DNA of 27,211 bases from a virus: the IMG/VR virus record IMGVR_UViG_3300030451_005335, positions 1 to 27,211 of that record; one strand, written 5' to 3'. The notes beneath the pieces are model-generated. The model did no database searches and was not told the DNA's origin. It saw only the letters and a list, made by a program, of their open reading frames with translations. Below are positions 946 through 23,600 of this stretch, piece after piece (position 1 is the first letter of the stretch; each line of letters begins with the position of its first letter). Position numbers and translations under genes: made by a program.

Positions 946-962
946 TTTTGTTAAAAAAAGGG

Positions 963-970
963 TATAAATA
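963..970 (+). promoter_or_regulatory. T4-type late promoter ahead of gp25
   Basis: An exact TATAAATA octamer, the T4 late promoter -10 element recognised by the gp55-type sigma factor with sliding-clamp activation, lies in the 42-nt gap before gp25. Its last base is 17 nt before the ATG, the same spacing as at the gp8 promoter. By T4 geometry transcription would start near 976, leaving a leader of about a dozen bases with no Shine-Dalgarno sequence. The start point is inferred. Confidence 0.8.
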
Positions 971-987
971 AATATAAAACTTGGTTC

Positions 988-1389
988 ATGGCATATAAAA
1001 GGGTGTCTAGAGGGTTTAAAGACATAAGTTTATCATTTTCACCCCACCCAGTCACTAAAGATCTTCCAATTCTCAAAAATGAGGATGCGATTAAGAGGTC
1101 AGTACGTAATGTTGTTGAGACAATACCAACTGAAAAATTTTTTAATCCAGATTTTGGGTCAGATGTGTATAGAAGTCTCTTTGATTTTGTTGATTTTGGT
1201 ACTGCAACCATTATTCAAGATCAAATTGAGACTTCGATTAATAATTTTGAACCAAGAGTTGATAATGTAAGGGTTGAGGTTGACCCAAGACCAGATGAAA
1301 ATGAGTTTGAGGTCACTGTCATATATGATATTGTCGGTCAAGAGTTCCCAACTCAAGAATTTACATTCATATTAGAATCAACAAGGTAA
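988..1389 (+). CDS. 25: gp25-like baseplate wedge subunit / sheath initiator
   Basis: At 133 aa this is almost the length of T4 gp25 (132 aa). It carries the family hallmarks: FFNPDFGSDVYRSLFDFV (residues 51-68), matching the 'FDPEFGxD...LF' block, and NNFEPRVDNVRVEV with the conserved EPR triplet at residues 88-90. The gp25/TssE family sits at the inner baseplate. Its fold resembles part of the sheath subunit, and it serves as the template on which sheath polymerisation begins. The gene stands directly behind a late promoter and ends 1 nt before the gp6 start. The first ATG after the promoter gives the expected family length. No Shine-Dalgarno is visible, consistent with a very short leader. 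Confidence 0.95.
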   Translation: MAYKRVSRGFKDISLSFSPHPVTKDLPILKNEDAIKRSVRNVVETIPTEKFFNPDFGSDVYRSLFDFVDFGTATIIQDQIETSINNFEPRVDNVRVEVDPRPDENEFEVTVIYDIVGQEFPTQEFTFILESTR

Positions 1390-1390
1390 T

Positions 1391-3295: not shown

Positions 3296-6200
3296 TAGAA
3301 ACTGGAATTGTAAGTAAAGTAAAAGTACAAGATGTAATAAGTAATCAACTTCCCGAATTTATCAGGGATGAGAGTCCTCTTACTGATGAATTTTTAAAAC
3401 AATATTATATTTCACAGGAATATCAAGGTGCACCTATTGATCTTGCAGGTAATTTAGATCAATATTTAAATATTAACAATTTATTACCAGAAGTCATAGT
3501 CGATACTTCTACTACAGTAGGTCTTACTACTACTGGTGATGAAACAATCAAAGTTTCTAGTACAAAAGGATTTCCAAATCAATACGGTTTATTAAAAATT
3601 AATAATGAGATAATTACCTATACTGGAATTACCACAAATTCTTTCACTGGTTGTGAACGTGGATTTAGTGGTATCACTAGTTATCATTCAGATTTAAATC
3701 AAGAAGATTTAGTGTTTTCCTCTTCAGTTTCTGATAATCATGATAGTGGGTCTACAATACAAAATTTAAGTTCTTTATTTCTAAAAGAATTTTATAAAAA
3801 ATTTAAGAAAACTTTTTTACCAGGATTGGAGAGTACAGATTTTCAATCAAAGTTAGATGTAGGCACATTTATAGGAAACTCAAGATCCTTGTACCAAACT
3901 AAAGGTACAGATGAATCTTTTAGAATACTTTTTAATATTCTGTATGGTTTAACCCCTAAAGTTTTAAATTTAGAGGAAAGATTAGTAAAACCATCATCAG
4001 CAAATTATGTTAGAAGAAGAGTTTGTGTAGCAGAATTATTATCAGGAAATCCTATACAATTGCAAGGACAGTCTCTTCTGAAAGGGTTGACAGGACAGAC
4101 TTTATTTAGAAGTGATCTTGATAGTGATAAAAATGCGTCAATTTCAGAAATAGAACCATTTGAAAGAAAAAATTCAGGTATAACTGGAATTACAACATAT
4201 TATAAGATAGGTTTATTTGTTGGGTATGATGAGTCTGCAGATGTAGAAAATGATTTTGTAATTGTTCCTAATACAAAATCATTGGAAAAAGTATCTATAG
4301 GTTCAAGTATAATCAATGTTGATTCTACCATAGGATTCGGTACAACAGGAACCATCATATCAGGATTAAATACAATCACGTATAATGGTAAAACAGTTAA
4401 TCAATTTTTAAACTGCACAGGAATTGGTGATACAATATTTCCCATACAAAATATTAGATCAAATATTACTTATTTTGGATTTGAGAATGGTGATCTAGAT
4501 AAAAAAGTAACTTTAAGATTAACAGGTGTCATATCAGATTTTGAACAAGAAGGAAAAATTGATGTAAATGAAGGAGAGTTAATTTCTATACGTGGTTTAG
4601 GTGATAGAGTAGAAAATAATAATGAAACATATAAAGAAACATTTTGTAATTCTTGGGTATATAATACTAGGTCTTCATTTTTCATTGATAGTATATCTGG
4701 ATCAACGTATACACTTTTAACTGATATTGATAAATCATCTTTAAAAAAAGGTGATTTGGTAGAAATAGTAGATAAAAGAAATAACGAAATAGTTGTTCCT
4801 TTTGATAATAATATACCACCACATGTGGAAGATTTTGGAACAGTTGGAGTTGGACAAAGCACAGTAACACTCTCTAGCACTGAATCTACATTAAGTAAAC
4901 TAATTGAAAAAGGAATTATTAGTAATGCTAGTGAGATTGTTAATTTTAAGATAAGAAAAGTTCTTAATAAAGCTCATAGTGATGGGGCACCCATAGAATA
5001 CGGTAACGATGCTATCATATCAGATATATTGAATGTTTATACTGATAAAAACTCGGAAACTGCATATATTACATCAAATTCACTTCCATCATTCATAGAT
5101 AATGAAAATGCAGATATATCGAAGAAAATCAATATAAACACAAAAAATATTTCTGTAGATTTATCTCAAGGAGGTAGTATTAGTGGTGACTCTGGTCAGG
5201 GAATAAATTATTCAACTATTAATTTTGGGTCTGCTGTTCCTTTTGATACTGGTGATAAAATCTTTTATTCACATTCAGATGGTGACGGACTCATTGGTAT
5301 TGAAACTGGTTCTTACTTCATAAAAAAAGTAGGACCTAAAAGTATAAGATTATTTACATCACCCTCAAATATAGATGGTGGTAGAAATCTAACATTCACT
5401 AAAAATTCAACTAATGGTATTGTAAGTTTTGTATTATTTTCTCAAAAATCATCAATTATAGGTGCTCAAAAACTACTTAAAGAATTTCCATTAAATCAAA
5501 ATATATCTAATGGTAAAGACGAGTTAACAGATGTTGGACAAACTGGAATACTCATTAATGGTGTTGAGATTTCAAATTACAAATCATCTGATAAAATTTA
5601 TTATGGTCCTTTAGAAAATCTTCAAGTTTTAAACAATGGAGAAGATTATGATGTCATTAATTTACCGAATATTGTAATATCAACTGGTATAGGTACCACA
5701 GCTTTAGCACAACCCGTCATTAGTGGAAAAGTAAAAAACGTTTCTGTTGATCCTCAAAATTTTGATGTAACGGAAGTTATTTCTATTGGTGTTACTGGTG
5801 GAAATGGTTCTGGATGTGTTTTAGAACCTGTGGTTGGAGAGAGATTTAGAATCGAACTATTTAATACTAATACCAAAACATCAAGTGAGTCTAGAAGTGG
5901 TATAAACACCTCAGATGAAAGGATAGTATTTTATAACGATCATAATTTTCAAACAGGAGATCCAATAATATATGATTCATTTAATAATTTAGGAGTGGGA
6001 ACAGGGGTAGCAGGTTCACTTGTACCCGACTCTATTTACTATCCATATGTAGAAAACTCTAAAACAATTACCCTTCATAAAACAGCAAAAGATGCACTCA
6101 CAGGAGGAGGAATTAATAAAATTAACTTTAATGGTAATAATGTTTCTGGTAATCATGCATTTAAAGTTGGTTTAAGAAAAACTTTATTAGATGTTAAAGT

Positions 6201-9200
6201 TATTAACGAAGGTGATGGATATACAAATAGAAATTTAAAGATTAATCCCACAGGAATTTCCACACAAAATGACAGTGTTAATTTTGTAAATCATGGATTC
6301 CAAGATGGTGAAGTCATTGAATATTTTGGTAATATTTCTGGATTAACACAAGGCAATAGTTATTATATATTAAAAATTGATGATAATTCATTTAATTTAA
6401 GTGATGCTGGAATAGGTGCTACTATTTCATCAAATTATATTAGACGTAAACAAGTAAATCTAACTTCTAATGGTGTAGGAATTCAAACTTTCAAATATCC
6501 AGATATAGAAGTTTTTGTAGATTTTACAGGTACCACTCCTAATCCTCCATCCTTTACTGTAGTTCCAACTGTTAGAGGATCAATTGATCAACTATATCTG
6601 TATGAATCTGGAACTGGTTATGGATCTACTATTCTCAACAATCATAAAAAACCAATTATAACCTTAGAAAATGGTGTTAATGCTTCAGTAATACCTAATA
6701 TTATAGATGGTAAAATTGATAGTGTTAGAGTTGTTGGTGGAAAGCAATACTACTCAGTTCCTGACCTTGTTGTTACGGATCCTACGGGATTGGGTGTAGG
6801 TGCTGAGTTAAGAGCTGTTTTAGGTGTAAATCCAATATCTTCGGAACCTCAAATTTCTGATGTTATTATTATAAATTCTGGAATTGGATATTCTACCGAT
6901 ACTACAGTAAGTGTCAAATCTGCAGGTAGAAATGCATTTTTTGATGCGAATGTGAGATCTTTAACAATCAATAAACATAATGTTAATGATGATTATCAAT
7001 TATTAGAAGATTCTGAAAATAAACTAAAATATTCAGTTACTGGTTATGATACCTCACTCTTAGGATCGTCTAATTTAATAGGTTGGGCGTATGATGGAAA
7101 TCCAATATACGGACCTTTTGGAAGTGATGATCCTACAGAGAGAAATGATTTAACTAAAAAATTACAGTCTGGTTATAAAAAAACATCTGACATAGTAGAT
7201 CGACCACCTGTAGATAGTAATATTGAATTTATAGAAGATTATGTATTTGATAATTCAGGTGATTTAGACAAACACAACGGTAGATATGAAGTCACATCGG
7301 ATTTTCCAAATGGTGTATATGCCTATCATGCTACTCTTGGAGATAACAATATACCAAAATTTCCATATTTTATTGGAAATTCATATAGATCTAAAGTAAT
7401 AGAAAATAATATTAGCAGTGTAAATCAAAACAATTTTGATTTTAACAATAGTGGAGTTCTTAGAAATACTTTCCCTTACAAAATAGGTGAAAAATCTGCT
7501 GATAATGATTTTATTGTTGAAACAAATGAAATTGAAAATCAAAAATTACAAATTGAGTCTATAATATCATCCTCAGTTACAGGATTTGATATTGTTAATG
7601 GTGGTGTTAATTATAAGGTTGATGAAACACTAGACTTTGATGAGGAAGGAACATCAGGAAGTGGTTTAATATCTGTCATATCAAAAATAGATGGAAAGTT
7701 AATTAGCAAAATAGAAACTACATTAGAGAGAAAAGAAAATACAGTGATTACTTGGGGAGATAGCAAATTAAATTTCTTTACTGAGGATAATCATAATTAT
7801 AATAATAATGATTTAGTTGTGATATCTGGTTTATCTACGGATATATCACAACTAAATGATACATTTAAGATCAATGTAGATAAGTTTGAAACAACTACTA
7901 TATCAACAGTTACAGCATCATCAAACGCTGGTGTGACAACAGACATTTATGTTGCTGAAATTCCAACATCAGTTTCCGTAGGTAGTAGTATTACTATTAG
8001 TGATGGAACTCAAAGTGAAACTTTGAAAATTCTAAACATTTATAGCAATAATATTTTAACAGTTCAAAGAGATTTTGGTTCATCATATTCTTTAGTTCAT
8101 CCCAAAGGATCTAATGTTAGTTATCTGCCAAATAAATTTACAATTAATAAAACTATAGATCGATTTGAGTCTGTAAATAATAGAAAAATATTTTTTAATG
8201 CAGAAGAATCTATTGGAGTATCAACAGCTGATGGATCTGAAATAAGTAAAACATTTAATTTTGCTGGTAATAACGTAACAAGAAATATTCCAGTAAAACA
8301 AATTTATCTTGAGAATCATAGACTTGAAACAAATCAAAAAGTCAAACTAACACAACCATCTAATACAAATGTTAAAATATCAATTGATAATGGTACTAAT
8401 TATTTTAACATTCCAGAAACATTATTTGTAGTTAATAAAACAATTAATACCATTGGAATTAAAACTCAAATAAATGGAGTAGAAGTTCATTTTTTAGATT
8501 CTTTAAATTCTTTCTGTGATGATGATACATTTTTCTTTGAGACACAATTTGATGAAGTAACATGTAAAGTAGAAAATATAAAAACAGAATTAACAACAAG
8601 CACTGCACATGAATTAGAAACAGGTGATAAAATTTCATTAGCAATACAACCTAATTTATCAGTAGGTATTGGTACATCAACACATGTAAGAGTATTCAGA
8701 GATGAATTATCTGGTAATGTATTAATTAACAAATTAAATTTCACTAATGTTGGAGTTAATACAATTACAAATTCATTTAATATTGAAAATCATCATTTAA
8801 ATACGGGAGAAAAAGTAAAATACAATGCTGATATTTTACCCGAAGGGTTAGAGAATAAAAATTATTTTGTTTACCGAGTTGATGATGATAATATAAAATT
8901 ATGTGATACTTTCATAGATTCTCAAAAAAATACTCCTAGTATAGTTGGTTTTGGAACAACTGGAGGTCTCACTCAATCTGTTGCACTAGTTAACCCAAGT
9001 TTTAATGTAATCAATAATAATGATTTAAAATTTGATTTATCTGATTCTTCAGTAAATGGATATACTTTTAATTTATATACTGATGATAAATTTATTAATA
9101 AATTTGTGAATGCAAGTGGCATATCGACTGTGTTTAATGTAGTATCACTTGGATCAACATTAACAGTGGGTTATACAACTAGTTTACCTGATATTTTATA

Positions 9201-12200
9201 CTATAATTTAGAGAAATCTGGAACAATTAGTACAGTTGATAGTAGTGTGCAAAATTATTCTAAAATAGAATATATTGATAGTAATTATAATGGAGATTAT
9301 TCGATTACTAAAGTTGGTATTAAGACTTTTAGTATATTCTTAGAAAAAAATCCAGAAAAATTATCATATTTGCCATCCGAATGTGATGTATTGAAGTACA
9401 GTACAACATCCAAAACAACAACAGGTTCTATAAATTCGATTAATATACTCTCTGGTGGCACAGGTTATAAAAAACTTCCAAAATTTATTGGTGTTGGTTC
9501 TAGTTCTTTAGGTGTTGGTGCGGTTATTAAAACCAAATCTAGTGATATAGGTAATATTGATAAAATTAGAGTCTTGAATGAGGGATTTGAATATTCTTCA
9601 GATAATACATTAAGACCTGAAAGTTTAATTGCGTCGAGTGTAGATATAATAAATTCAGCAACAATAGGTATTGTCACTGTGGTAAATGGTGGTTCCAATT
9701 TTATTGAGGCACCTAACGTAATTATTGTTAATACGGATACAGGTTTACAGATAGAAAGTGGATTTTTAGAACCAGTGATGTTGGAGAATAGTATTTTATC
9801 AGTAAATGTAGTCGAATCACCTGTGGGATTACCTGCTAATCCTGTGACAATAAGGACTACTAATAATACAAATGGTATTACTATAGATAGAGTATTATCA
9901 AATAATTCAGGTATTTTTACCTGCAGAATAGCAACTCCTAACGCACAATTCTCCACCCCTCCTTTTGCAGAAGGTGATAGGGTATTTATTGAGGGTATAG
10001 AAAAAATAAGTTCTGATGGATCTGGTTTTAATTCATCTGATTATGGATTTAATTTGTTAAAGGTTACTGATTTTAGTTATGTTAATTCTAAAGGTCAAGT
10101 AACAATTGATTTATCTGAATTTGGTGGTGAGGTAAAAACTGGATTAAGTGAATCAAGTGATCTTCAAAAATTTGCAAATATAATTAATGAATCTGATTAT
10201 CCTGAATTTGGCATTATACTGGAACAAACTACCTTTAAAAAGGGAGAATTTATATCAGTAAATGATAAAAAAACTAATTTAGAAATTGTTGATATAGATA
10301 CAGGAAAATTGAAAATATTTGGTGCTCTTGACTTAAATGTAGGAGATATAATTAAAGGAGAAATAACTGGAAGTGAAGCTGAAATAAGTAATATATCCGA
10401 AAACAAATTGAGATTAAAAACAGACTTTTCTATTTTAAAAGATCTTGGATGGAATGATAGTATAGGTAAATTAAATGAAGATTTCCAAGTTGTGCCTGAT
10501 AATGATTATTATCAAAACATGTCTTACTCAATTCAAAGTTCGATTGAATGGGATACTTTTAAATCATCCGTTAATAATTTAGTTCATACTAGTGGTATGA
10601 AAAATTTTGCAGATTTAGGAATTAGTTCGTCTGCAAAATCGGGAGTGGGAACTGAATTGAGTGAAAATAAACTAGTGTTGATACGTGATATAATTGAAGA
10701 GAAGAGGGTTGATGAAATAAAAAATATTGATACAGTTCGTGATACCGATATCATAGGCAACACTGCTAGAAAAATAACATTTGATAATATCAGATTATCA
10801 GATTTTATAAGTTGCAAAACAAATGATGTTTTAACAATGGATGATTTATCACCTTCATTTAGTAATTTAGAAGAAGGTGTAGATTCGTTTATTGATCTAA
10901 TAGAGTTTAATGAAACTGCTGGAGTTCAATTTTTTAATAACTTATTGGTAGTTACAACTAGTAATCCAGCAGATAGAATCGAAATTTCTGACTTAATGGT
11001 TATAAGTAATGGTAGTGAAAATATTTTAGTAAAAAAAGGGAATTTAATTAACTCTGATGATGGATTTAATACGGCAGATGATATAATTGTTGATTATAAA
11101 CTCCATAATAACCTGAATACAGGTAGAAACACTTTGAGATTTTCACCAGTAATAGATCCAATTCCTGGTAATGAAAGTGATTATGATTTAAAAATATTTA
11201 AGACTGAATTTAACACTAATTTAGTTGGTGTTGGAACATCTTCTATAGGTCCTATAAATTTAAGTTCCAGAAATAAAATATCTTTAACAGGTATTACAAC
11301 TGATATTATTACGGTACCAATTAGTAGTTTTGATTCTCTTTACGCTACTGTATTTGTTTATGATATTTTCTCTAATAAAATGAATTTGATTGAGAGTTTT
11401 GTCACACACAATGATTCAGATAGTTTTCTCACACAATCATACTTTAGTGGAGAAAATAAAAATATATCACTAGAGTCTTTAGGAATTATTACATCTAGTG
11501 TATCATCAGGAAATTTAATTTTAAGTTTTGATAATCAATACTCAAATTCTTTAAATATAAAATCTAAAGTGGTGGTATTTGGTGATACTGGAACAGCAAA
11601 TGATGAGTACAGATTTAAAACTGAAGGGCAAGAAGATGGGTCAGAGAGAACTTCATTCTATGCAGGTATGTCAACAAGTAATGTTGGTGTATCCACTCTC
11701 CAATACTTAGATTCTAATCTTATTAATGCTGTTAAAACAGTTGCAGAAGTGAGCATAGGTTCATCAAAAGCTGTTCATGAAGCTTTATTCATACACGATG
11801 GTACAAACGCATATGCTCATCAAGCAGGATCACTATCAGTCACTAAAGATTATAATTCGGAGTATGATCCCTCTGTTGGATTAGGTACATTTGGTGCATC
11901 ATTATCAGGATCAAGTTTTAAAATAGAGTTTTATCCAGATAAAACTACTGGAATATCAACAGTAGTAGCACTGAATCATTGTTTTTATACTCTAGTTGAT
12001 GAAGAAAATATTCCAGAGGATTTAACTTATGGTACCATAACCGAAAGCAATAGTATAAAATTTTATAATTCTGTAACTGGAAATAGGGCATTTAGAACTA
12101 AATTCACTCCTAAAGTTAATTCTATCCCATTATATGGAAAAAGATTTAATCCAAATTCCTCATCAGATTTAAATTTATCAACTGGTTTATTCACATTAGA

Positions 12201-15200
12201 AAATCATTTCTTCAGAAACAATGAAGAATTAATTTACACACCCAAATCTACTTTTGTTGGTGTAGGATCAACTGCTATGCAATACAAAGGTGTTTCAGGT
12301 GGAATAGGATCTTTGACTTCACCAGTATTTGCAATAGTAAATGATGAAAATTCATTCTCAATATCTACAACTAAATCAGGAACAGCTGTTACATTTACAA
12401 GTGTAGGAGAGGGAAATGCTCATCAATTTGACATGTTAAAAGCAAATGAAAAATCTTTAATTATACTTGATGATGTTGTACAATATCCTTTAATAAGAAC
12501 TGATGTTACTCATACTTTAGATAGTAATTTAAATGCAGAGGTAGGGATTGCAACTGACATAATCCATTTAAGTGGTATTACTACTATCGCATCCTCCGAT
12601 ATATTAAAAATTGAAGATGAATTTGTTGAGGTTATTAATGTTGGACTTGGTACAACTGGTGGTGCTGCTGTTAGTGGTTTGGGAACATTTAATACAATTC
12701 AGGTAAATCGTTCTTTTGTTGGATCTTCAGCGACAACACATGCTGATGGAACTACTGTCACAAGATTTAAGGGATCTTATCACATCAATGGTAGAGATTT
12801 ATTCTTTACTAAGGCACCAAGAGGGAATGTTAATAATCCTAGAACTATAAATGATTTACCATCTCCAGTATCCAAATTCTCAGGTAGAGTCTATCTTAGA
12901 AATAATTATGATACTAACTTAGTGTTTGATGACATATCAGATCAATTTACTGGAATTAAATCAGATTTTGTTTTAAAAGTAGGTGGAGCAAACACAGTTG
13001 GTTTGGGGACAACAGGTGGAAGTGGAATTTTATTTATTAATGGAATATTCCAATCTCCTTCAACTGAATTTAATCCTAATAAAAACTTTAAGATAGTAGA
13101 AAGTGGGACTGGTGCTTCTGGTGTAACAACAGTTATATTTACAGGAATTACATCTGAAAATGGAAATCCTTTCATATCAAATAATATTAACACTAACGAA
13201 TTACCAAGGGGTGGAGTTCCAATATCAATAGGTAATACTGTAAATGGATTAGGTTATGCACCATTAAAAGGTGCAAGAGTTAAACCTATAATTGGAGCTG
13301 GAGGAACAATTGCCTCTATAGTTGGAGTTGCATATAGTGCTTCAGATTTAGTTATCAATAATGCAGAATATGATAACACCACTGGAGTAATGAAAATTAC
13401 AACTGATAATGAGCATCCATTCTACCGTGGTGGTTCTGATTTTGTCTTACTTAATAATATAACCTTTAATCCACCAATAACTTTTATAAGGACAAACTCT
13501 ATCGAAGTTGTATCGATAGCAGCTACAAATATTTTTAGCGTATCCATTGGTAAAAGCACGGTAGATTCACACACTTACGTTTCAGGTGGTAATGCATACC
13601 CATTTTATCCAGACTTAACTTTTGGATCTGGATATAATGATATTGTATCTATTGGAGTTACTGTACAAGATCCTGGATATAAACATCGTTTTATTTCTGC
13701 AAATGATAATGCGTTAACAATTTTTGGTGGAGGTGGAAGTTTAACACCTACTGATGCAGATTATGATCCTGTTACAGGTGTATTAAAATTATCTGTTGCT
13801 AATCATAACCTAACAAATTCAAGTAAGATAACTATTGTAGATAGTAGTCTTTTCTTCTCATGCTCAAAGGACAATTTCAGGACAGTTCATCCATATCCAA
13901 GAACAACTGATCCAGTTTCTGGTATTGCGACAGACGTAACCGTATTAAGTGATGATTTATTCTCAGTAAATGTCTATAAAAATGTAGGGAGTGGAGCAGT
14001 AGTATCAGCAACCGCAGGAGTTGGTGGAACAGCAATATTTAATATAGTTGATGGAGGAGAAAATTACAAAGATCCTCAAATATTTGTTTCACAACCATCA
14101 TACTCTAATTTATCAGTTAAAGGTATTTCTAGAGTCGGAGAGGGACCAACAACAGAAACAGGAACTGATCTAAGAGTTACTGCAATAGTGAAACCAGTAA
14201 CTGGTATAGGATCAACTTTATTCGAGGTTTCTGAATATGAGGTAGTTAATTCTGGATTTGGATTTAAAAAGGGTGATGTGGTAGAACCTGTAGGGTTAGT
14301 AACATCTAAAGAATTAAGTCAATTGGATGAAAGATCTAGAATAACTATCGATAAAGTTTACAATGATAGTTTTGCATTGTGGCAGTTTGGTGATTTTGAT
14401 TATATTGATTCTATTAAAAATTTACAAAATGGATCACGAACTGCTTTTCCTTTAAAAGTTACTAATCAATTAGTTAGTGTAGAATTAGATAAAAATACAA
14501 CTAATAAGAATTTTAGAATTGAAGATGTATTTTTAGTGATTGTAAATGGTGTAATTCAGGAACCAGTTGATGCATACACCATAATCGGAGGAAACACTAT
14601 TAGTTTTTCTGAACCACCACTAGGTAGTACATCATCATTATCAGATGATGCTGATGATATAAGTATACTATTCTATAAAGGAACCGCAGGTGAAGATTCT
14701 ATAGGAAATTTTGCAGAATCATTGACTATTGAGGTTGGTGATACAATACAGTTGCAATCAGGTTCTGGAGTTGAAAAGCAAGATCAAAGAACGGTCTTTA
14801 ATCTCAATACCTCACAAACATTAGAAACAAATCCTTATAGGGGAGTTGGCATTAATAGTGATAAATCAAGACCTTTAAATTTAATAAAACAAAAAGAAGA
14901 TAAAGTAATTAATCAATTAGTGGTATCTAAAAAAAGAGAGAGTATAGAACCAAGGATTTCTCCTACAGCAAAAATCATTTCTGATGTTACATTAGCAAAC
15001 ACTGGATTTTTTGTTGATAATGCAGATCTATTTAATTATGAACCATCCACTTCATCATTGAATTTGCAGATTATTGATCCAGTTAAGGATACTTTTGCAA
15101 ATGCAAAAGCAACTGCTACTATCTCTGCAGGTGGAACTGTAACAGGATTTAATATTTCTAATTTTGGTTTTGGATATACAACTAATCCCACTGTTGAGAT

Positions 15201-15963
15201 ATCAGCACCACCCACCATTCTTAAACAAGAAGATAATACAATAGTTGGTGTTGGTACAACAGCAACAGCAACAGCAACAATTAATGCAAGTGGTGCCATC
15301 ACTAAAATAGAAGTTGTAAATCCTGGTTTAGGATACACTATAGCACCTCAAGTTTTAATAAGTAGTCCATTTAATTTACCAGAGAGGACTGAAAATCTAA
15401 GCACTGATGTTGGAATTTCTATAGTGGTGAAAAATAATTGTGGAGTTGTCACAGGTATCGGAACCACATTATTTGGTAGTCCTAGTCAGTTAGCACTTGA
15501 GTTTACTCTTAAACGTGATGATTTTGATAATTTTGATACTGAAAGTCCAATAGATGTTGGTACTCCAATTTATATTTTTGATACTCAAGTTGGTTCGGGA
15601 TTGACATCTATCAATCTAAGTAAAAATGATAGTGATGTTGTGGGAATTGGAACATCTTTCATAGATAATGTTTATATGGTTGCTGCCAAATGCAAATTAG
15701 ATGGAAATGTTGGTTTAATTACAAGTTACATAAAATCAGATAGCACAATAACTGGTTTGGATTTGGCAGGGTCAACTGCAATAGGTAAATACTCAGTTGG
15801 ATTAATTACTAGTTTTACACGAGGAGAAAATCCAATATCTATAGGAGTTACTGGTTTAAGTGTTGGATTATCCACAGCACTTGGAATATCTACATTCCCA
15901 ACTTTAAAGAGAAGTGGTGGACCAAGAACACTAGAACAATCTGGTGGATTATCACCATCATAA
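3292..15963 (+). CDS. Giant gp7-like baseplate wedge protein with modular repeats, 4,223 aa
   Basis: One uninterrupted frame encodes 4,223 aa, roughly 460 kDa at 110 Da per residue. T4 gp7 has 1,032 aa. The link to gp7 is positional (between gp6 and gp8) and by sequence: SRSLYQTKGTDESFRILFNI (residues 197-216) matches the 'SRSxxFYSTKG...SYKFLFKVLY' block I recall near the gp7 C-terminus. Beyond residue ~330 the protein is mostly beta-repeat: at least 13 GxGY-type repeats, nine 'H-x-hydrophobic-x-TGD' repeats, three 'EI-x-Y-TG...RGF' modules and a YHYH domain at ~1255-1370. A C-terminal block (about 3580-4060, with WQFGDFDYIDSIKNLQNG and FLVIVNGVIQEP) resembles cyanophage baseplate proteins as I recall them. 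There is no signal peptide or membrane segment. Translation is probably coupled to gp6 (ATGA overlap; GGAG at 3275-3278). A large structural role, with the extension projecting from the baseplate, is inferred. Confidence 0.85.
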   Translation: MIETGIVSKVKVQDVISNQLPEFIRDESPLTDEFLKQYYISQEYQGAPIDLAGNLDQYLNINNLLPEVIVDTSTTVGLTTTGDETIKVSSTKGFPNQYGLLKINNEIITYTGITTNSFTGCERGFSGITSYHSDLNQEDLVFSSSVSDNHDSGSTIQNLSSLFLKEFYKKFKKTFLPGLESTDFQSKLDVGTFIGNSRSLYQTKGTDESFRILFNILYGLTPKVLNLEERLVKPSSANYVRRRVCVAELLSGNPIQLQGQSLLKGLTGQTLFRSDLDSDKNASISEIEPFERKNSGITGITTYYKIGLFVGYDESADVENDFVIVPNTKSLEKVSIGSSIINVDSTIGFGTTGTIISGLNTITYNGKTVNQFLNCTGIGDTIFPIQNIRSNITYFGFENGDLDKKVTLRLTGVISDFEQEGKIDVNEGELISIRGLGDRVENNNETYKETFCNSWVYNTRSSFFIDSISGSTYTLLTDIDKSSLKKGDLVEIVDKRNNEIVVPFDNNIPPHVEDFGTVGVGQSTVTLSSTESTLSKLIEKGIISNASEIVNFKIRKVLNKAHSDGAPIEYGNDAIISDILNVYTDKNSETAYITSNSLPSFIDNENADISKKININTKNISVDLSQGGSISGDSGQGINYSTINFGSAVPFDTGDKIFYSHSDGDGLIGIETGSYFIKKVGPKSIRLFTSPSNIDGGRNLTFTKNSTNGIVSFVLFSQKSSIIGAQKLLKEFPLNQNISNGKDELTDVGQTGILINGVEISNYKSSDKIYYGPLENLQVLNNGEDYDVINLPNIVISTGIGTTALAQPVISGKVKNVSVDPQNFDVTEVISIGVTGGNGSGCVLEPVVGERFRIELFNTNTKTSSESRSGINTSDERIVFYNDHNFQTGDPIIYDSFNNLGVGTGVAGSLVPDSIYYPYVENSKTITLHKTAKDALTGGGINKINFNGNNVSGNHAFKVGLRKTLLDVKVINEGDGYTNRNLKINPTGISTQNDSVNFVNHGFQDGEVIEYFGNISGLTQGNSYYILKIDDNSFNLSDAGIGATISSNYIRRKQVNLTSNGVGIQTFKYPDIEVFVDFTGTTPNPPSFTVVPTVRGSIDQLYLYESGTGYGSTILNNHKKPIITLENGVNASVIPNIIDGKIDSVRVVGGKQYYSVPDLVVTDPTGLGVGAELRAVLGVNPISSEPQISDVIIINSGIGYSTDTTVSVKSAGRNAFFDANVRSLTINKHNVNDDYQLLEDSENKLKYSVTGYDTSLLGSSNLIGWAYDGNPIYGPFGSDDPTERNDLTKKLQSGYKKTSDIVDRPPVDSNIEFIEDYVFDNSGDLDKHNGRYEVTSDFPNGVYAYHATLGDNNIPKFPYFIGNSYRSKVIENNISSVNQNNFDFNNSGVLRNTFPYKIGEKSADNDFIVETNEIENQKLQIESIISSSVTGFDIVNGGVNYKVDETLDFDEEGTSGSGLISVISKIDGKLISKIETTLERKENTVITWGDSKLNFFTEDNHNYNNNDLVVISGLSTDISQLNDTFKINVDKFETTTISTVTASSNAGVTTDIYVAEIPTSVSVGSSITISDGTQSETLKILNIYSNNILTVQRDFGSSYSLVHPKGSNVSYLPNKFTINKTIDRFESVNNRKIFFNAEESIGVSTADGSEISKTFNFAGNNVTRNIPVKQIYLENHRLETNQKVKLTQPSNTNVKISIDNGTNYFNIPETLFVVNKTINTIGIKTQINGVEVHFLDSLNSFCDDDTFFFETQFDEVTCKVENIKTELTTSTAHELETGDKISLAIQPNLSVGIGTSTHVRVFRDELSGNVLINKLNFTNVGVNTITNSFNIENHHLNTGEKVKYNADILPEGLENKNYFVYRVDDDNIKLCDTFIDSQKNTPSIVGFGTTGGLTQSVALVNPSFNVINNNDLKFDLSDSSVNGYTFNLYTDDKFINKFVNASGISTVFNVVSLGSTLTVGYTTSLPDILYYNLEKSGTISTVDSSVQNYSKIEYIDSNYNGDYSITKVGIKTFSIFLEKNPEKLSYLPSECDVLKYSTTSKTTTGSINSINILSGGTGYKKLPKFIGVGSSSLGVGAVIKTKSSDIGNIDKIRVLNEGFEYSSDNTLRPESLIASSVDIINSATIGIVTVVNGGSNFIEAPNVIIVNTDTGLQIESGFLEPVMLENSILSVNVVESPVGLPANPVTIRTTNNTNGITIDRVLSNNSGIFTCRIATPNAQFSTPPFAEGDRVFIEGIEKISSDGSGFNSSDYGFNLLKVTDFSYVNSKGQVTIDLSEFGGEVKTGLSESSDLQKFANIINESDYPEFGIILEQTTFKKGEFISVNDKKTNLEIVDIDTGKLKIFGALDLNVGDIIKGEITGSEAEISNISENKLRLKTDFSILKDLGWNDSIGKLNEDFQVVPDNDYYQNMSYSIQSSIEWDTFKSSVNNLVHTSGMKNFADLGISSSAKSGVGTELSENKLVLIRDIIEEKRVDEIKNIDTVRDTDIIGNTARKITFDNIRLSDFISCKTNDVLTMDDLSPSFSNLEEGVDSFIDLIEFNETAGVQFFNNLLVVTTSNPADRIEISDLMVISNGSENILVKKGNLINSDDGFNTADDIIVDYKLHNNLNTGRNTLRFSPVIDPIPGNESDYDLKIFKTEFNTNLVGVGTSSIGPINLSSRNKISLTGITTDIITVPISSFDSLYATVFVYDIFSNKMNLIESFVTHNDSDSFLTQSYFSGENKNISLESLGIITSSVSSGNLILSFDNQYSNSLNIKSKVVVFGDTGTANDEYRFKTEGQEDGSERTSFYAGMSTSNVGVSTLQYLDSNLINAVKTVAEVSIGSSKAVHEALFIHDGTNAYAHQAGSLSVTKDYNSEYDPSVGLGTFGASLSGSSFKIEFYPDKTTGISTVVALNHCFYTLVDEENIPEDLTYGTITESNSIKFYNSVTGNRAFRTKFTPKVNSIPLYGKRFNPNSSSDLNLSTGLFTLENHFFRNNEELIYTPKSTFVGVGSTAMQYKGVSGGIGSLTSPVFAIVNDENSFSISTTKSGTAVTFTSVGEGNAHQFDMLKANEKSLIILDDVVQYPLIRTDVTHTLDSNLNAEVGIATDIIHLSGITTIASSDILKIEDEFVEVINVGLGTTGGAAVSGLGTFNTIQVNRSFVGSSATTHADGTTVTRFKGSYHINGRDLFFTKAPRGNVNNPRTINDLPSPVSKFSGRVYLRNNYDTNLVFDDISDQFTGIKSDFVLKVGGANTVGLGTTGGSGILFINGIFQSPSTEFNPNKNFKIVESGTGASGVTTVIFTGITSENGNPFISNNINTNELPRGGVPISIGNTVNGLGYAPLKGARVKPIIGAGGTIASIVGVAYSASDLVINNAEYDNTTGVMKITTDNEHPFYRGGSDFVLLNNITFNPPITFIRTNSIEVVSIAATNIFSVSIGKSTVDSHTYVSGGNAYPFYPDLTFGSGYNDIVSIGVTVQDPGYKHRFISANDNALTIFGGGGSLTPTDADYDPVTGVLKLSVANHNLTNSSKITIVDSSLFFSCSKDNFRTVHPYPRTTDPVSGIATDVTVLSDDLFSVNVYKNVGSGAVVSATAGVGGTAIFNIVDGGENYKDPQIFVSQPSYSNLSVKGISRVGEGPTTETGTDLRVTAIVKPVTGIGSTLFEVSEYEVVNSGFGFKKGDVVEPVGLVTSKELSQLDERSRITIDKVYNDSFALWQFGDFDYIDSIKNLQNGSRTAFPLKVTNQLVSVELDKNTTNKNFRIEDVFLVIVNGVIQEPVDAYTIIGGNTISFSEPPLGSTSSLSDDADDISILFYKGTAGEDSIGNFAESLTIEVGDTIQLQSGSGVEKQDQRTVFNLNTSQTLETNPYRGVGINSDKSRPLNLIKQKEDKVINQLVVSKKRESIEPRISPTAKIISDVTLANTGFFVDNADLFNYEPSTSSLNLQIIDPVKDTFANAKATATISAGGTVTGFNISNFGFGYTTNPTVEISAPPTILKQEDNTIVGVGTTATATATINASGAITKIEVVNPGLGYTIAPQVLISSPFNLPERTENLSTDVGISIVVKNNCGVVTGIGTTLFGSPSQLALEFTLKRDDFDNFDTESPIDVGTPIYIFDTQVGSGLTSINLSKNDSDVVGIGTSFIDNVYMVAAKCKLDGNVGLITSYIKSDSTITGLDLAGSTAIGKYSVGLITSFTRGENPISIGVTGLSVGLSTALGISTFPTLKRSGGPRTLEQSGGLSPS
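3550..3693 (+). repeat. EI-x-Y-TG / RGF module, first copy, in the giant gp7-like protein
   Basis: Residues ~87-134 read as a compact beta module: a 'S-x-STKGFP' entry, then INNEIITYTGI, then FTGCERGFSGITSYHSD. The same scheme (a strand with Glu-Ile-Ile-x-Tyr-Thr/Ser-Gly, then an Arg-Gly/Arg-x-Phe turn and a downstream His) recurs at 7897-8130 and 12553-12768 in this gene and at 23857-24081 in the DUF4815 protein. The copies are divergent and recognised at protein level only. The function is not known to me. Confidence 0.6.
5620..6250 (+). repeat. GxGY and H-TGD repeats (residues ~779-985) of the giant protein
   Basis: Two GxGY-type beta repeats, LNNGEDYDVINLPNIVIS near residue 780 and VINEGDGYTNRNLKINP near 970, flank a copy of the second repeat family, HNFQTGDPIIYD at residue 884, which is followed by a 'SIYYPYV' strand. 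The next H-type copy, HGFQDGEVIEYFG, is at residue 1001 (6292). Spacing between copies is irregular and identity is low, so this is an old, diverged repeat array. Confidence 0.6.
6601..6960 (+). repeat. Cluster of three GxGY beta repeats
   Basis: Residues ~1104-1223 contain three successive copies: YESGTGYGSTIL, VVGGKQYYSVPDLVVTDP and INSGIGYSTDTTVSV. The consensus is a short strand ending in (N/G/S)-G-x-G-Y, then x4-P-x-(V/I)-x-(V/I)-x-x-P and a Gly/Ala-rich linker such as GLGVGAEL. This array ends directly before the YHYH domain. Confidence 0.65.
7050..7389 (+). other. YHYH-type domain inside the giant gp7-like protein
   Basis: Residues ~1255-1366 carry the marks of the YHYH family: GWAYDGNPIYGPFG at 1264-1277, then DRPPVDSN, and GVYAYHATLGDNNIPKFPYF ending near 1361. 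YHYH domains occur in secreted bacterial proteins and, as I recall, in large cyanophage structural proteins. Their biochemical role is unclear to me. Both defining segments (the 'DGxPIYGP' turn and the Tyr-x-Tyr-His strand) are intact, so the domain is probably folded and not a remnant. Confidence 0.75.
7897..8130 (+). repeat. EI-x-Y-TG / RGF module, second copy
   Basis: Residues ~1536-1613 include VAEIPTSVSVGSSITISDG, then LKILNIYSNNILTVQRDFG and SSYSLVHPKGSNVSYL. The 'hydrophobic-x-V-x-R-x-F-G-S-S...H-x-x-G-x-x-V' end matches the end of the third copy (VNRSFVGSSATTHADGTTV), which makes the relationship convincing even though the first half is diverged. Confidence 0.55.
8317..8890 (+). repeat. 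Cluster of three H-x-x-TGD beta repeats
   Basis: Three copies lie at residues 1676 (HRLETNQKVKLTQP), 1773 (HELETGDKISLAIQP) and 1835 (HLNTGEKVKYNADILPEGLE, continuing into NKNYFVYRVDDDNIKLC). The consensus is H-x-hydrophobic-x-T-G-(D/E)-x-hydrophobic-x-(Y/L), then a strand 'Y-(F/Y)-(V/I)-x-x-(V/I)-D-(D)-(D/N)-x-(F/I)-x-L'. Further copies in the same protein are at residues 884, 1001, 1501, 2972, 3375 and 3505. This is a structural repeat of fibre-like proteins, with function inferred. Confidence 0.6.
9445..9735 (+). repeat. Cluster of three GxGY beta repeats (residues ~2052-2148)
   Basis: Successive copies are LSGGTGYKKLPKFIGVGSSS (residue ~2053), LNEGFEYSSDNTLRPE (~2096) and VNGGSNFIEAPNVIIVN (~2131). 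The first is followed by a GVGAVIKT linker and IDKIRV strand, showing the full unit: G-rich linker, 'I-x-x-I-x-V' strand, GxGY turn, 'x-P-x-V/F-I' strand. Confidence 0.65.
12553..12768 (+). repeat. EI-x-Y-TG / RGF module, third copy
   Basis: Residues ~3088-3159 read DIIHLSGITTIASSDILKIE, DEFVEVINVGLG, then IQVNRSFVGSSATTHADG and TTVTRF. This is the clearest copy of the unit: entry strand, 'ILKIEDE' strand in place of 'LLKINNE', and the 'R-x-F...H-x-D/x-G-T' exit shared with the copy near residue 1600. Confidence 0.6.
15118..15372 (+). repeat. Pair of GxGY beta repeats near the C-terminus of the giant protein
   Basis: Residues ~3943-4027 hold two near-consensus copies, ISNFGFGYTTNPTVEISAPP and VVNPGLGYTIAPQVLISSPF, joined by a Thr/Ala-rich linker. 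These two are the best preserved copies in the protein and can serve as the query for finding the others. Confidence 0.7.
15262..15279 (+). repeat. Hexanucleotide microsatellite (GCAACA)x3
   Basis: Three perfect GCAACA units encode an Ala-Thr dipeptide repeat (residues 3991-3996) in the linker between two GxGY repeats. The repeat is in frame, so unit gain or loss would change linker length without a frameshift. Confidence 0.8.
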
Positions 15964-15980
15964 ATATGTATTATCACCAT
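15948..15980 (+). repeat. 11-bp direct repeat ATTATCACCAT at the end of the giant gene
   Basis: ATTATCACCAT occurs at 15948-15958, in the last codons of the giant gene, and again at 15970-15980, just after its stop codon. TGGTG at 15942-15946 can pair with the CACCA in either copy, and the second copy is followed by TTTTT. A weak 5-bp hairpin is possible. No function is established. Confidence 0.5.
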
Positions 15981-15994
15981 TTTTAAAAATCTTG

Positions 15995-16002
15995 TATAAA
16001 TA
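15995..16002 (+). promoter_or_regulatory. T4-type late promoter ahead of gp8
   Basis: An exact TATAAATA octamer lies in the 56-nt gap between the giant gene and gp8. Its last base is 17 nt before the gp8 ATG, identical to the gp25 case. It gives gp8 and the DUF4815 giant behind it their own late transcript, independent of read-through of 12.7 kb of upstream gene. The transcription start is inferred from T4 geometry. Confidence 0.8.
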
Positions 16003-16019
16003 TCTAAAAAACTAATAAT

Positions 16020-17621
16020 ATGCCAGCAATAGTAACAGATCAATTTAGAATAACGAATGCGGGTAATTTTGTAGACTCAGTATTAAATGAAAGTAATTCT
16101 TATTATGTATTTTTAGGATTACCAAATCCTGCAGGAAAAGATGGTGTTGCTGGATTTGGAAGAACTACTTCTTGGAATAATAATGTTCCAGATCCAACTG
16201 ATAATCAACAATACCTAACTCATTACAGAGATACCTCATTATTTGGTAAAAAAATAAATGCATCAAATGTTAGAAGAGTTGTAAAAAAACATACTTGGGC
16301 AGCCAATACCAGATACGATATGTATCGTCATGATTACCGAATAAAGGATGGTGATGAAAATAAAGCACCTAATTCTCAAAGTGGAAGTTTATATAGAACG
16401 AATTATTATGTAATCACATCAGAATTTAAGGTTTATATTTGTTTAGATAATGGAGGATTTGGAGATCCAACATTAAATGATGCAAAAGGAAACGGTAGTA
16501 AGGATGAACCAACATTTACAGATTTAGAACCAGCAGCTGCTGGAACAAGTAATGATGGTTATTTGTGGAAATACCTTTTTACAGTGGCACCTAGTGACGT
16601 TGTAAAATTTGATTCAATAGAGTATATTGTTTTACCAAACGATTGGTCTACATCGACTGATTCTCAAATACAAGCAGTGAGAGAAAATGGAGACTCAGAT
16701 ATAAATAAAAATCAAATTAGAAAAGTTTATATTGAAAATCCTGGAAGCACTTACACAGATGGTCAAAAAGTTTGTGATATTTTAGGAGATGGTACTGGAG
16801 CACAAGTATTAGTAACCGTATCAGGAGGAAAGATCATTGATACAGTTGTTACTGCAGGAGGTTCAGGATATACTTATGGTATTGTTGACCTTAAAAATAT
16901 AGGTAATTCTGATGTGGTTGCAGATAACAGAGCAACTTTGATACCAATCATACCACCGTCAAAAGGACATGGATTTGATATTTACACTGAACTTGGTGCT
17001 GATAAGGTTTTAGTTTACTCTCGTTTTGACGATTCAACAAAGGATTTTCCATCAGACACACATTTTGGTCAAGTTGGTATAATAAAAAATCCAAATGGAA
17101 CAAACAATACAGGAATAATAACTACATCACAATTTTCATCATTGTCTGCTATTAAACTAAGTGGTGATATAGCAGATTCAGTAAAAGATGTTATAGTAGG
17201 AAGTACAATAACACAAAGTGTAACTGGTGGAACTGCGAGAGGTATTGTTGCTTCTTATGATTCTGAAACCTTTGTTTTAAAATATATTCAGGATCGAAGT
17301 TTAAATTATTCTACAACTCCATTAAAGAAAGATCCCACTGATTATCCTACTTCATCAACCGAGGCTAAAGTATTATCATTTAGTTCTACTGGTAACATAT
17401 TTGAAGGAAGTAATGATTTAGGATCACCAATGAGTACTTTTAGTGGAATAACCACAACTATTAATAATAAATTGATAAATTTAGGTGTTCAGTTCACAAA
17501 TGGACTTGCTGGTTCTGAAATAAATAAAAAGACTGGTGATGTAATTTATATCGATAATCGAAAAGAAGTTACTCGGAACATCAGACAAAAAGAAGATGTT
17601 AAAATCATTCTGGAATTCTAA
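16020..17621 (+). CDS. 8: gp8-like baseplate wedge protein, enlarged (533 aa)
   Basis: The N-terminus MPAIVTDQFRITNAGNFVDS parallels the T4 gp8 start 'VTSKFR...NFYNSI'. GYLWKYLF (residues 180-187) matches 'GYVWEYLF', and GDVIYIDNR (506-514) with the terminal ILEF matches 'GEMIYMENR...ILFTF'. gp8 is a dimeric outer wedge protein. T4 gp8 has 334 aa. The extra ~200 aa here fall in two places: residues ~238-300, holding two GxGY repeats (IENPGSTYTDG and AGGSGYTYG), and a segment of ~140 residues after the GIIKNP strand. The core is otherwise intact. The gene follows its own late promoter with a leader of about a dozen bases and no Shine-Dalgarno. Five bases separate it from the next gene. Confidence 0.92.
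   Translation: MPAIVTDQFRITNAGNFVDSVLNESNSYYVFLGLPNPAGKDGVAGFGRTTSWNNNVPDPTDNQQYLTHYRDTSLFGKKINASNVRRVVKKHTWAANTRYDMYRHDYRIKDGDENKAPNSQSGSLYRTNYYVITSEFKVYICLDNGGFGDPTLNDAKGNGSKDEPTFTDLEPAAAGTSNDGYLWKYLFTVAPSDVVKFDSIEYIVLPNDWSTSTDSQIQAVRENGDSDINKNQIRKVYIENPGSTYTDGQKVCDILGDGTGAQVLVTVSGGKIIDTVVTAGGSGYTYGIVDLKNIGNSDVVADNRATLIPIIPPSKGHGFDIYTELGADKVLVYSRFDDSTKDFPSDTHFGQVGIIKNPNGTNNTGIITTSQFSSLSAIKLSGDIADSVKDVIVGSTITQSVTGGTARGIVASYDSETFVLKYIQDRSLNYSTTPLKKDPTDYPTSSTEAKVLSFSSTGNIFEGSNDLGSPMSTFSGITTTINNKLINLGVQFTNGLAGSEINKKTGDVIYIDNRKEVTRNIRQKEDVKIILEF
16731..16880 (+). repeat. GxGY repeats inserted in gp8
   Basis: Residues ~238-287 of the gp8-like protein hold IENPGSTYTDGQKVCDILGD and, about 38 residues later, AGGSGYTYGIVDL, joined by a GTGAQVLVTVSGGKI linker. 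This is the same unit as in the neighbouring giants. T4 gp8, as I recall it, lacks this segment. Confidence 0.65.
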
Positions 17622-17626
17622 GGAAA

Positions 17627-20600: not shown

Positions 20601-23600
20601 GTATAAGAGCTTCTGATACTTTAGATTTTAGACCAAGAGTATCTGAATATATTGTTGCTACAGATACTGGATCACCTTTCCAATTTTCTCAGAGAGATTT
20701 TAGTGGAACATCAATTTTGAGATATTTGGCACCGAATGAATCTTCTATCCTTAGTTATGAAAATTATCTAGCTAGAATTGATAAACTTTACATCAATAAA
20801 TTTGGTAAATTTATATACGAAAAAGGTATATCTTCTATGAATCCAAGACCACCAGTAAAATCTGGTGAACTAATGGAATTAGCTACTATAGCATTACCAC
20901 CTTACTTATATAATCCTCAAGATGCAACACTAGCATTAACTGATAATCGAAGATATACGATGAGGGATATTGGTGATATTGATGATAGAGTTAAAAATTT
21001 AGAGGAAGTTACTACTTTAACTTTGTTGGAAACAGCTGCTCAAACATTGCAAGTTCTGGATGAAGAAGGAAGAAACAGATTTAAAACAGGATTTTTTGTC
21101 GATCCATTTGATAATTATAATTTTATAAACCGTAATTTATCATCAACTCAAATTAATCCAAATGCTGGAGAACTAATACCATTTAGAAGTAGAGATACTC
21201 TTGCATCTCAAATTACACCAGCAGCATCAATTGATGTTTCTCAATTAGATTTTAATACTGATTTTGATTTATTTGACTCAAATATTAAAAAAACTGGTGA
21301 TGTTATAACATTAAATTATGAAGAGGTTGAGTGGATAACACAACCTTATGCCACAAGGACTGATGGGGTTAATGATACTATGAATGTTAACCCATATGAA
21401 ATTCCTGTTTTTAGTGGAACTATTGAATTAGATCCTAGATCTGATGTTTGGACAAGAACAAGACAAATTGAACCAACACAAATTATACGACAAGAAGGAA
21501 CAAATGGAACAGTATCAAATGTTAATTTAGATGTTAATTTGGGATCTGCTGAAAATCCATTAACATTTGATGCAGGAGTCAGAAGAGTAGCAAATCCTGG
21601 AAATGCAGGAACGAGAAGGCAGAGAACTATTTTCCAAGGTGAAGTTGCTGCTACAAATGTCATAAATGAAACTATTCAGATTAGTAACGCTGATACTACT
21701 GTTCGAAATAATCTAGTATCTTCTGGTGCCGAAGATTTTATGAGATCTAGAAATATATCATTTGTGTCTAGTGGATTTGCAGCTCATTTAAGAATGTACT
21801 TATTCATTGATGGTCAAAAAATATTTGATATTATTCCCAAATTATTAGAAATAGTTAAAGAACCAAATGGCACTGAGAATGGTTCAAATGGTTCTTTTAG
21901 GGTTGGAGAAACTGTGAGAGCTTACTTTGGTGGAAAAGAAATCATGTCATTTAAAGTTTGCCGACCAGATCACAAATCAGGATCAATCTCATCTCCAAGT
22001 GAAACATACTTGAAAAATCCATATACCAAAAATACTGGATTATTAGATATACCCACTTCTTATACACCATCAATAGATATTTTAAACATTGATATAAAAT
22101 CATTAGCTGAAGAGGCACAAGGGGATTTTTCTGGATACTTAAGGAAAAATGCAAAATTGGTTGGAAGTCAAAGTGGAGCAGAAGCGTATGTAAAACAAAT
22201 AAGACTTGTAACTGACGATTTTGGTGATTTACTTGGATCATGTTTTCTTCGTGATCCATTAGCACAACCCACACCAAGTGTTAGAATACAAGCAGGTTCG
22301 AAAGACTTTAAGTTAACATCAAGTTCTACAAATGAAAATGTACAACCAGCTGAAAAATTTGGTGTTATTGCTGCAGAAACAAGATATGATGCCATTGGAA
22401 CATTTGAAGAATGGCAAGAAACACTTACTATCGAAACAAACACCAATACAGTTAATGTTACTGGAGATGTTTCAGGAAATCTTGCTCTTATAGAAACGGT
22501 ACAATATTATGATCCATTAGCACAAACTTTTGTTGTTGGTGGCAATGTAAATTCACCAAGTGCTGTGGGTGCTAACAAAGATTTAAATGGTGCCTTTATA
22601 ACTTCCGTAGAAGTTTACTTTGCTTCAGTTGATACCACTACAAATTCACCAATAACATGTGAAGTTAGAAGTGTAACTGGTGATGCTAGACCATCTAGAG
22701 AATTAATAGGTAGAAGTAAAACATTAAGACCAAGAGGAACTGATTCAAGTGGAAATGAAGTTACTTTAATTGAGTTTGATCCTGATTCTGCAAGTAAACC
22801 AACTAAGTTTACATTCCCAGAACCAATATATTTGGCACCAGGTGAATCATACGCATTTGTTTTGGTAGCACCTCAGAGTACTGAATATAATGTTTGGACT
22901 GGAAGACATGGTGGAGTTGCAGTAAATGCAAGCACTATTCAAGAAGCAGACTCTGGAGCATCTTTAATTTATGGTACACAATATGCCATGGGTTCGATAT
23001 TTAAATCTCAAAACGGTGCTCTTTGGACTGAAGATCAGACTATGGATATGACATTTAAATTATATAAAGCTAAATTTACTTCACAATCAGGAACTGCATT
23101 CTTTAATAATCCTAAACTAAGTGACAGTAATGGATATGTACCTACCCTATTAAGTAATCCAATAGAAACTTTCCCTAAAACTGGAAAGATAGGTATTGAT
23201 ACAACCACATCAACAACTGTTATTCAGGCTTTAGTTCCAGGTAGAAAGGTAAGTGCTACTTTCCCTACAAGCACTGCTGTTATAGTTGGCACAGGTGCAC
23301 CTGTAGCATCCGCAAGTATAATTGATGGTCTTGGTGGAACAAATTATGTAGCAACTAATTCTGTCGAAACTTTTGCAATAACAGGTGAAGGTTCTGGTTT
23401 AAAGGTAAACATAAGCGGCACAGGTGCCATCACTGGTGTGACTGTTGCTGAAAGTGGAAATGGATATCAAATAGGAGATGTGGTAGGTATTGTTACATCA
23501 CAAGTTGGTACTAAAGGTGGTCAGGGTGAAGGTGCTCGAATTAGTATTGGAAGCACGGGTGGAATTGATACTTTATTCTTGACAAATATCCAATCTAATG

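Follow-up and report, generated by a model that had tools for sequence, protein, structure and literature searches.

Domain I of the phage T4 tail sheath protein gp18 (residues 98-188; 3FO8, 3FOA) is reported to be a six-stranded barrel with a helix, inserted in a conserved core. In the accessible part of PMC3004832, this domain is reported to bind retracted tail fibres and the baseplate, and the mutation of G106 to S to inhibit fibre retraction. The structure of a second T4 protein, the baseplate wedge protein gp8, is also solved (PF09215, 1N7Z). The window analysed here, which is the whole 27,211-base stretch of the IMG/VR virus record IMGVR_UViG_3300030451_005335, carries a T4-like baseplate block that encodes gp25, gp6, a gp7-like giant protein, gp8 and a DUF4815/VrlC protein; the same block also encodes an LtfC-like and a small fibre-like protein, together with the first part of a gp13-like protein. 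The giant, gp8 and the DUF4815 protein carry a beta-repeat with a GxGY loop, here called the GxGY unit, whose copies are named by their residue in each protein. The analysis confirmed that this repeat is real and forms one family in the three proteins. Its copies appear to be old, fixed insertions inherited with each gene, and paired copies may form a small barrel similar to gp18 domain I.

The literal G.GY motif occurs eight times in the giant, while 1000 shuffles gave a mean of 1.1 and a maximum of 5. It occurs once in gp8 and once in the DUF4815 protein, so the literal motif by itself is no proof in those two. The original prediction, made from the sequence alone, counted about 13 copies in the giant, two in gp8 and at least one in the DUF4815 protein, and proposed to recover them with a profile of the two best copies. 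Used alone, this two-copy profile was too narrow: taken one by one, the other copies did not stand out from shuffled decoys, the highest score among them being 6.1 bits against 6.5 bits for the best decoy of a set about 200 times larger. When the same profile was iterated over 204 open reading frames (ORFs) from the window and ten relatives, with a threshold at 1% estimated false discovery, 136 units were found, 12 of them in the window. Nine of these 12 are at predicted giant sites, two are in gp8 and one is in the DUF4815 protein; of the four giant sites left, 2098 remained under the threshold (2.9 bits), while 783, 974 and 3655 did not appear among the listed units. A retrained profile, for which 802 ORFs including the window's own copies were used, gave scores of 4.7-39 bits to 12 of the 13 giant sites and also found the predicted copies in gp8 and the DUF4815 protein. 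With a cut-off of 5 bits it detected 894 units in the 802 ORFs, against seven decoys in twice as many proteins (1604 decoys, top score 7.7 bits). The predicted family common to the three proteins is recovered by profile in all of them.

The thirteen copies counted in the giant are not equally well founded. Twelve score with the retrained profile, but 974 lies within the decoy tail, since it has 4.7 bits, decoys reach 7.7 bits and the window copies were in the training set; 783 scores in relatives only. Unit 3655 is also less certain, as its support comes from the retrained profile and the earlier, iterated profile found two units in all at that site. Among the twelve giant sites with a score, the weakest are 974 and 3655. 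In relatives, giant sites recur near 972, 1110, 1152, 1200, 1440, 2058, 2136, 3588, 3960 and 4014, and in the two best copies the residues G3959, Y3962, G4012, G4014 and Y4015 are invariant across 54 aligned rows.

In gp8, both predicted copies were recovered by the iterated and the retrained profiles (15.1 bits for 242 and 21.5 bits for 281), and the sites recur in relatives near 240 and 282. The relatives' loci were fetched with gp8 and DUF4815 queries, and some of the records overlap; 117 gp8 proteins with units were found, of which 108 are distinct. Residues G242, Y245, G280, G281 and Y284 are identical in 69 of 69 aligned gp8 proteins, rows that are closely related because the 80 best loci for the gp8 query were kept. 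That T4 gp8 lacks this segment, as the original prediction stated, was borne out: between the matching blocks T4 has 36 residues where the window protein has 128 (207-334), and the unit profile found nothing above -2.7 bits on T4 gp8. The cores of the two proteins are alike, while T4 has neither the unit insert nor a second insert, which in the window protein spans approximately residues 360-460 (window 17097-17399).

In the DUF4815 protein, the predicted copy at 1944 was recovered, and relatives add a second site at 1904-1907 with 17 units, none of them scored in the window. Counting relatives and window together, the two sites have 17 (1904) and 25 (1944) units. The coordinates of the carriers and units are collected in Table 1.

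Table 1. Carrier genes and GxGY units in the window (bits refer to the retrained profile unless marked as earlier, which is the iterated profile)
Feature	Position	Strand	Remarks
gp7-like giant baseplate protein, 4223 amino acids, 13 proposed units	3292..15963	+	phrog_2885 over 2-4208
gp8 baseplate wedge protein, 533 amino acids	16020..17621	+	PF09215, E 2.4e-11; model matches 1n7z
DUF4815/VrlC-like protein, 2495 amino acids	17627..25114	+	PF16075, E 5.6e-55
Giant unit 783 (GEDY)	5545..5691	+	10 units in relatives at the aligned site; no score in the window
Giant unit 974, weak	6136..6261	+	4.7 bits; about 20 units at the site in relatives
Giant units 1107, 1149 and 1197, in a row	6547..6921	+	10.2-13.1 bits, earlier 11.1-14.0; recur in relatives
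Giant unit 1437	7543..7641	+	11.8 bits, earlier 15.3
Giant units 2055, 2098 and 2133, in a row	9403..9729	+	17.9, 12.2 and 12.7 bits; 2098 earlier 2.9
Giant units 3588 and 3655	13993..14286	+	12.7 and 18.6 bits; earlier 5.1 and none
Giant seed units 3959 and 4012 (two best)	15100..15363	+	39 and 36 bits; AlphaFold2 strand order in both
gp8 insert, about residues 215-312, with units 242 and 281	16662..16955	+	T4 gp8 about 90 residues shorter there
DUF4815 units 1904 and 1944	23288..23497	+	1944: 13.5 and 11.5 bits; 1904 scores in relatives only
Possible half unit after 1944	23522..23596	+	0.8-2.6 bits, not significant

The original prediction knew of no named domain for the unit, and none was found. 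No Pfam or NCBIfam model was found to cover it: matches were insignificant, or were significant with the best stretch outside the units, the latter being verified for the two array proteins and for locus L152. Five arrays of the neck protein gp14, which also carries units, matched no Pfam family up to E 10, with no Ig-like match, and a PDB sequence search with these arrays and a paired-unit alignment gave nothing better than E 0.4. No paper naming the unit was found in the open-access literature, which is not proof of absence. The GxGYxYP family (PMC4071793) was rejected as a candidate; the likeness is limited to the letters of the name, and no such Pfam match was seen.

The unit has about 33-45 residues, arranged as strand A, a turn, strand B, the GxGY loop and a short strand C. 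AlphaFold2 models were obtained for gp8 and for the last 374 residues of the giant, with a mean predicted local distance difference test score of 82.7 and 79.5, respectively. The full strand order was present in three of the four modelled copies, namely gp8 281, giant 3959 and giant 4012. In gp8 234-312 six strands are predicted, of which the two units supply five and the sixth follows them. The core of the gp8 model corresponds to T4 gp8 1n7z (Z 18.7, 271 residues, 3.6 Å), and a plain Foldseek search with gp8 gave five matches under E 0.001, all of them chains of gp8 from T4 or Klebsiella phage KP1. For the end of the giant, the matches listed in a PDB fold search mostly cover another part of the model (195-323), and in a viral structure library the weak matches (E 0.0014-0.0084) were two hub/lysozyme proteins, one neck protein and one sheath monomer.

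A link to the T4 sheath is suggested by both sequence and fold. On a 30-kb stretch of T4, the only match of the unit profile above 2 bits falls in gp18, at residues 96-116 (7.5 bits), on the PGSNY loop of domain I and the strand that precedes it. Eleven of 12 T4-type sheaths match the profile at this strand and GxGY-like loop, up to 13.2 bits, and in a shuffle test none of 500 shuffles was as high for ten of these eleven, with 5 of 500 for the eleventh. The 12 sheaths are those of T4, four named phages and seven of 16 IMG/VR sheath loci; one locus (L197) was excluded because its frame is broken, and the S-PRM1 and Ps15 sheaths were scanned, but not counted as T4-type. The sheath of Vibrio phage D490 had no profile match, and that of cyanophage S-PRM1 none above 2 bits. 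In the fold alignment, gp8 234-310 pairs with gp18 3foa 99-185 (71 residues, 2.8 Å). The two segments are alike in being inserts in a conserved core, and the six strands predicted in gp8 234-312, one of them outside the units, may correspond to the reported six-stranded barrel of T4; they differ in the host protein.

Both the profile match and the fold alignment would put PGSTY of gp8 on PGSNY of T4. With 234 and 99 as first pair, Met as residue 1 and no gap, P241, G242 and Y245 would fall on T4 P106, G107 and Y110; this register is an estimate, because the fold tool gives end points and not residue pairs. In the translated T4 gp18, residue 107 is G and 179 is A, while 106 is P and 178 is L. 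Since G and A stand one position later there, G106 in the available text of PMC3004832 corresponds to the first glycine of PGSNY, numbered without the Met. Homology of the GxGY unit to gp18 domain I, which would be its closest solved relative, is likely rather than proven. If this link is true, the existing T4 fibre-retraction mutants offer a direct route to the function of the unit in marine T4-like phages.

The units are not restricted to the three adjacent baseplate genes that the original prediction emphasized. Among near-full-length proteins, units of at least 5 bits were found in all of gp8 (114/114), gp7 (7/7) and gp14 (19/19), in 36 of 61 DUF4815 proteins, in two of four gp18 and in two of 55 LtfC-like proteins; there were none in 93 others (gp6, 12; gp13, 43; gp25, 10; fibre-like, 28). 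The neck protein gp14 (phrog_460, head closure Hc2) has the same unit at another position of the virion, in tandem and in a denser array, with more units per residue. It lies slightly beyond the baseplate block in the gene order of relatives, and the focus on the three neighbours arose because the window ends before it. The five gp14 arrays together match 18 PHROG families, whose names include tail fibre, hub/lysozyme and baseplate wedge. In single phages, units are also present in the sheath protein of Ps15, a YadA-domain protein and a 1443-residue protein of P-SSM4; the YadA-domain structural protein of P-SSM4 (L005:29296-37269) bears, towards its end, a regular array of six units.

The sheath of Stenotrophomonas phage Ps15 has two clear units at 238-303 (20-38 bits), inserted between the parts aligned to T4 gp18 250 and 338. 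It has few residues at the place of T4 98-188, so the insertion place differs from that of domain I. A tblastn search with one unit pair against phage records returned only 17 near-identical Stenotrophomonas phage sheaths sharing the stretch.

Outside phages, a 13-residue peptide pattern led to 60 genome stretches of several phyla, and all 60 loci carry units. The pattern itself selects the motif, so only additional units count as evidence: 58 of 66 bacterial/archaeal proteins at these loci carry at least two units, with a maximum of 25. By record title, the carriers include Bacteroidota, Verrucomicrobiota, Planctomycetota, Methanoperedens and others. The unit is the same as in phages, but the cellular proteins have long arrays, some of them beside multicopper-oxidase or autotransporter-repeat matches. 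Two proteins from metagenome-assembled genomes, with 25 units (L149:797-7999, proteobacterium) and eight (L152:5370-7999, Ca. Methanoperedens), stand beside multicopper-oxidase matches. The GxGY unit is a vertically inherited and widespread beta module, apparently without a name.

We propose that this small beta module, often found in twos or threes, would form a small barrel of about six strands when two units stand side by side, as in T4 gp18 domain I. The units would be inserts in virion proteins whose cores manage without them, T4 gp8 having none. Their most likely job would be mechanical: by analogy with domain I, the exposed barrels in gp7, gp8, DUF4815 and gp14 may offer tail fibres or adjacent virion proteins a surface for docking or bracing, with the GxGY loop being either the contact itself or a turn that shapes it. 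For paired units that form such a surface, with copies that are old and fixed insertions, we estimate a probability slightly under one half (about 0.47). A more general proposal, in which the unit is a docking half-barrel of contractile tails at large, the same barrel recurring in gp18 domain I, gp8, the giant, DUF4815/VrlC and gp14 with the loop glycine of G106S as common contact site, seems rather unlikely. If it were true, marine T4-like phages would have many docking points for fibres or neighbours across the baseplate and neck.

Several observations weigh against the docking barrel. The gp8-gp18 fold alignment has a Z of 5.7; below 8, according to the tool, a match may reflect a common arrangement. 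No gp18 was among the 50 matches listed by plain Foldseek with gp8. The same was true of the 50 matches listed when the model of the end of the giant was searched by fold against the PDB, which excludes nothing. The T4 gp18 match of 7.5 bits is just under the best of the 1604 decoys (7.7 bits), the 12 sheaths include several near-copies, and the second loop in T4-type sheaths is degenerate, mostly not GxGY. In profile-profile comparison, the gp8 unit segment matched T4 domain I poorly (12%, 14 columns), while the second insert of gp8 (about 361-441) reached 57% over 44 columns and may therefore be the closer relative of domain I. In unit gp8 242 the model shows strands B and C with the loop between them, while strand A is not predicted; that two units make six strands thus holds only for the giant's pair. 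Moreover, bacterial arrays of up to 25 units point to other uses, and the units have no known binding partner.

The units may instead be structural filler, i.e. stable beta spacers that stiffen or lengthen virion proteins with no specific partner, the loop being kept for the fold only. The very long arrays in unrelated bacterial proteins agree with this, and so does the variable copy number, 6 to 14 units in the giants (seven near-full-length proteins) and 3 to 6 in the 19 gp14 proteins; the conservation of Gly and Tyr may likewise reflect the needs of a tight loop. However, the sites recur across wide divergence and most keep their own sequence, more than a bare spacer requires. We consider filler a possible, but not the probable, explanation. 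Binding to the host surface is less plausible. Units acting as weak glycan binders, as proposed for the Ig-like domains of other phage virion proteins, would be in keeping with the match of gp14 arrays to fibre-annotated PHROG families and with the many large bacterial repeat proteins that carry units, and the accessible part of PMC9230969 discusses such a role for sheath add-on domains. Ig-like domains are likewise added beta modules, but the GxGY unit has no Ig-like or carbohydrate-binding Pfam match, and gp14, as a neck protein, would be away from the host surface. This role is improbable.

The original prediction had suggested module exchange between genes, or selection for a common binding or stacking surface. 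A site could be assigned to 828 of the 894 units; the remaining 66 could not be mapped, fell outside the bins used for sites or stood too close to the end of a protein. Of the assigned units, 741 are distinct. For 712 of these 741 the closest unit from other phages shares both gene and site, a similarity partly built in because sites were named by alignment to the window proteins. The pattern is less clean at gp14 sites 2-4, where 43 of 52 units have their nearest relative at their own site, and neither of the two units at giant 3655 has its nearest relative there. A tree of 101 of the 828 units required 23 site changes, close to the minimum of 20, while shuffles had a mean of 84.4 and none of 200 was as low. 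This tree has 45 columns, the bootstrap did not settle and its deep branches are poorly resolved; on these branches the genes mix (11 gene changes), and the units of gp14 sites 2 and 4 are scattered over more than one group (4 changes for each site). Cross-gene site pairs were not more alike overall within a genome than across genomes (mean difference -0.78, range -11.6 to +9.6). Exchange as a recent or continuing process is therefore unsupported, while an ancient spread between genes is possible. Recombination between neighbouring genes as what keeps the family alike would account for the same unit in several genes of one genome, the mixed deep branches with scattered gp14 sites, and single site pairs more alike within a genome by up to +9.6 score units, but it is very improbable given the 712 of 741 same-site relatives and the unraised same-genome similarity. 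Of the interpretation first offered, the shared family stands and recent exchange does not; selection for a common surface is possible.

Each carrier in the window has one Pfam family: PF14240 in the giant, PF09215 in gp8 (43.7 bits, cut-off 25) and PF16075 in the DUF4815 protein (187.2 bits, cut-off 30). The PF14240 match is a YHYH domain (E 1.6e-20) at 7066-7350, residues 1259-1353 of the giant, between units 1197 and 1437. The gp8 of cyanophage S-SRM01 (58% identity) is the closest to the window gp8 among the matches listed in named phage records.

In the accessible text of PMC7029224, gp7 is stated to be missing from the phages concerned, with VrlC apparently in its place. In contrast, residues 192-224 of the giant resemble T4 gp7 726-758 (E 3e-7 when the first 450 residues were searched as a profile of six sequences); this is one short motif, and by pairwise comparison the same stretch is weak (E 0.015). 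The motif itself lies at 3868-3948 of the window, giant residues 193-219.

A widespread unit that is unnamed in Pfam and NCBIfam can mislead annotation. The family phrog_460, 'head closure Hc2', matches the window gp7 and gp8 in their unit regions. In Pelagibacter phage HTVC008M, a gene between gp6 and gp8 (L006:16916-19966) is named 'head closure Hc2' and carries three units, so that its name is probably an annotation leak. Other labels also call for attention. A 240-residue ORF of the window at 223-945 has no Pfam match and matches phrog_3704, 'ferredoxin' (E 2.3e-111), a label that looks odd. In S-SRM01 (L002:38218-41563), the labels 'tail sheath protein' and 'terminase large subunit' seem to be interchanged: the 'tail sheath protein' hardly aligns with T4 gp18 and has a stretch that we take to be Walker-like.

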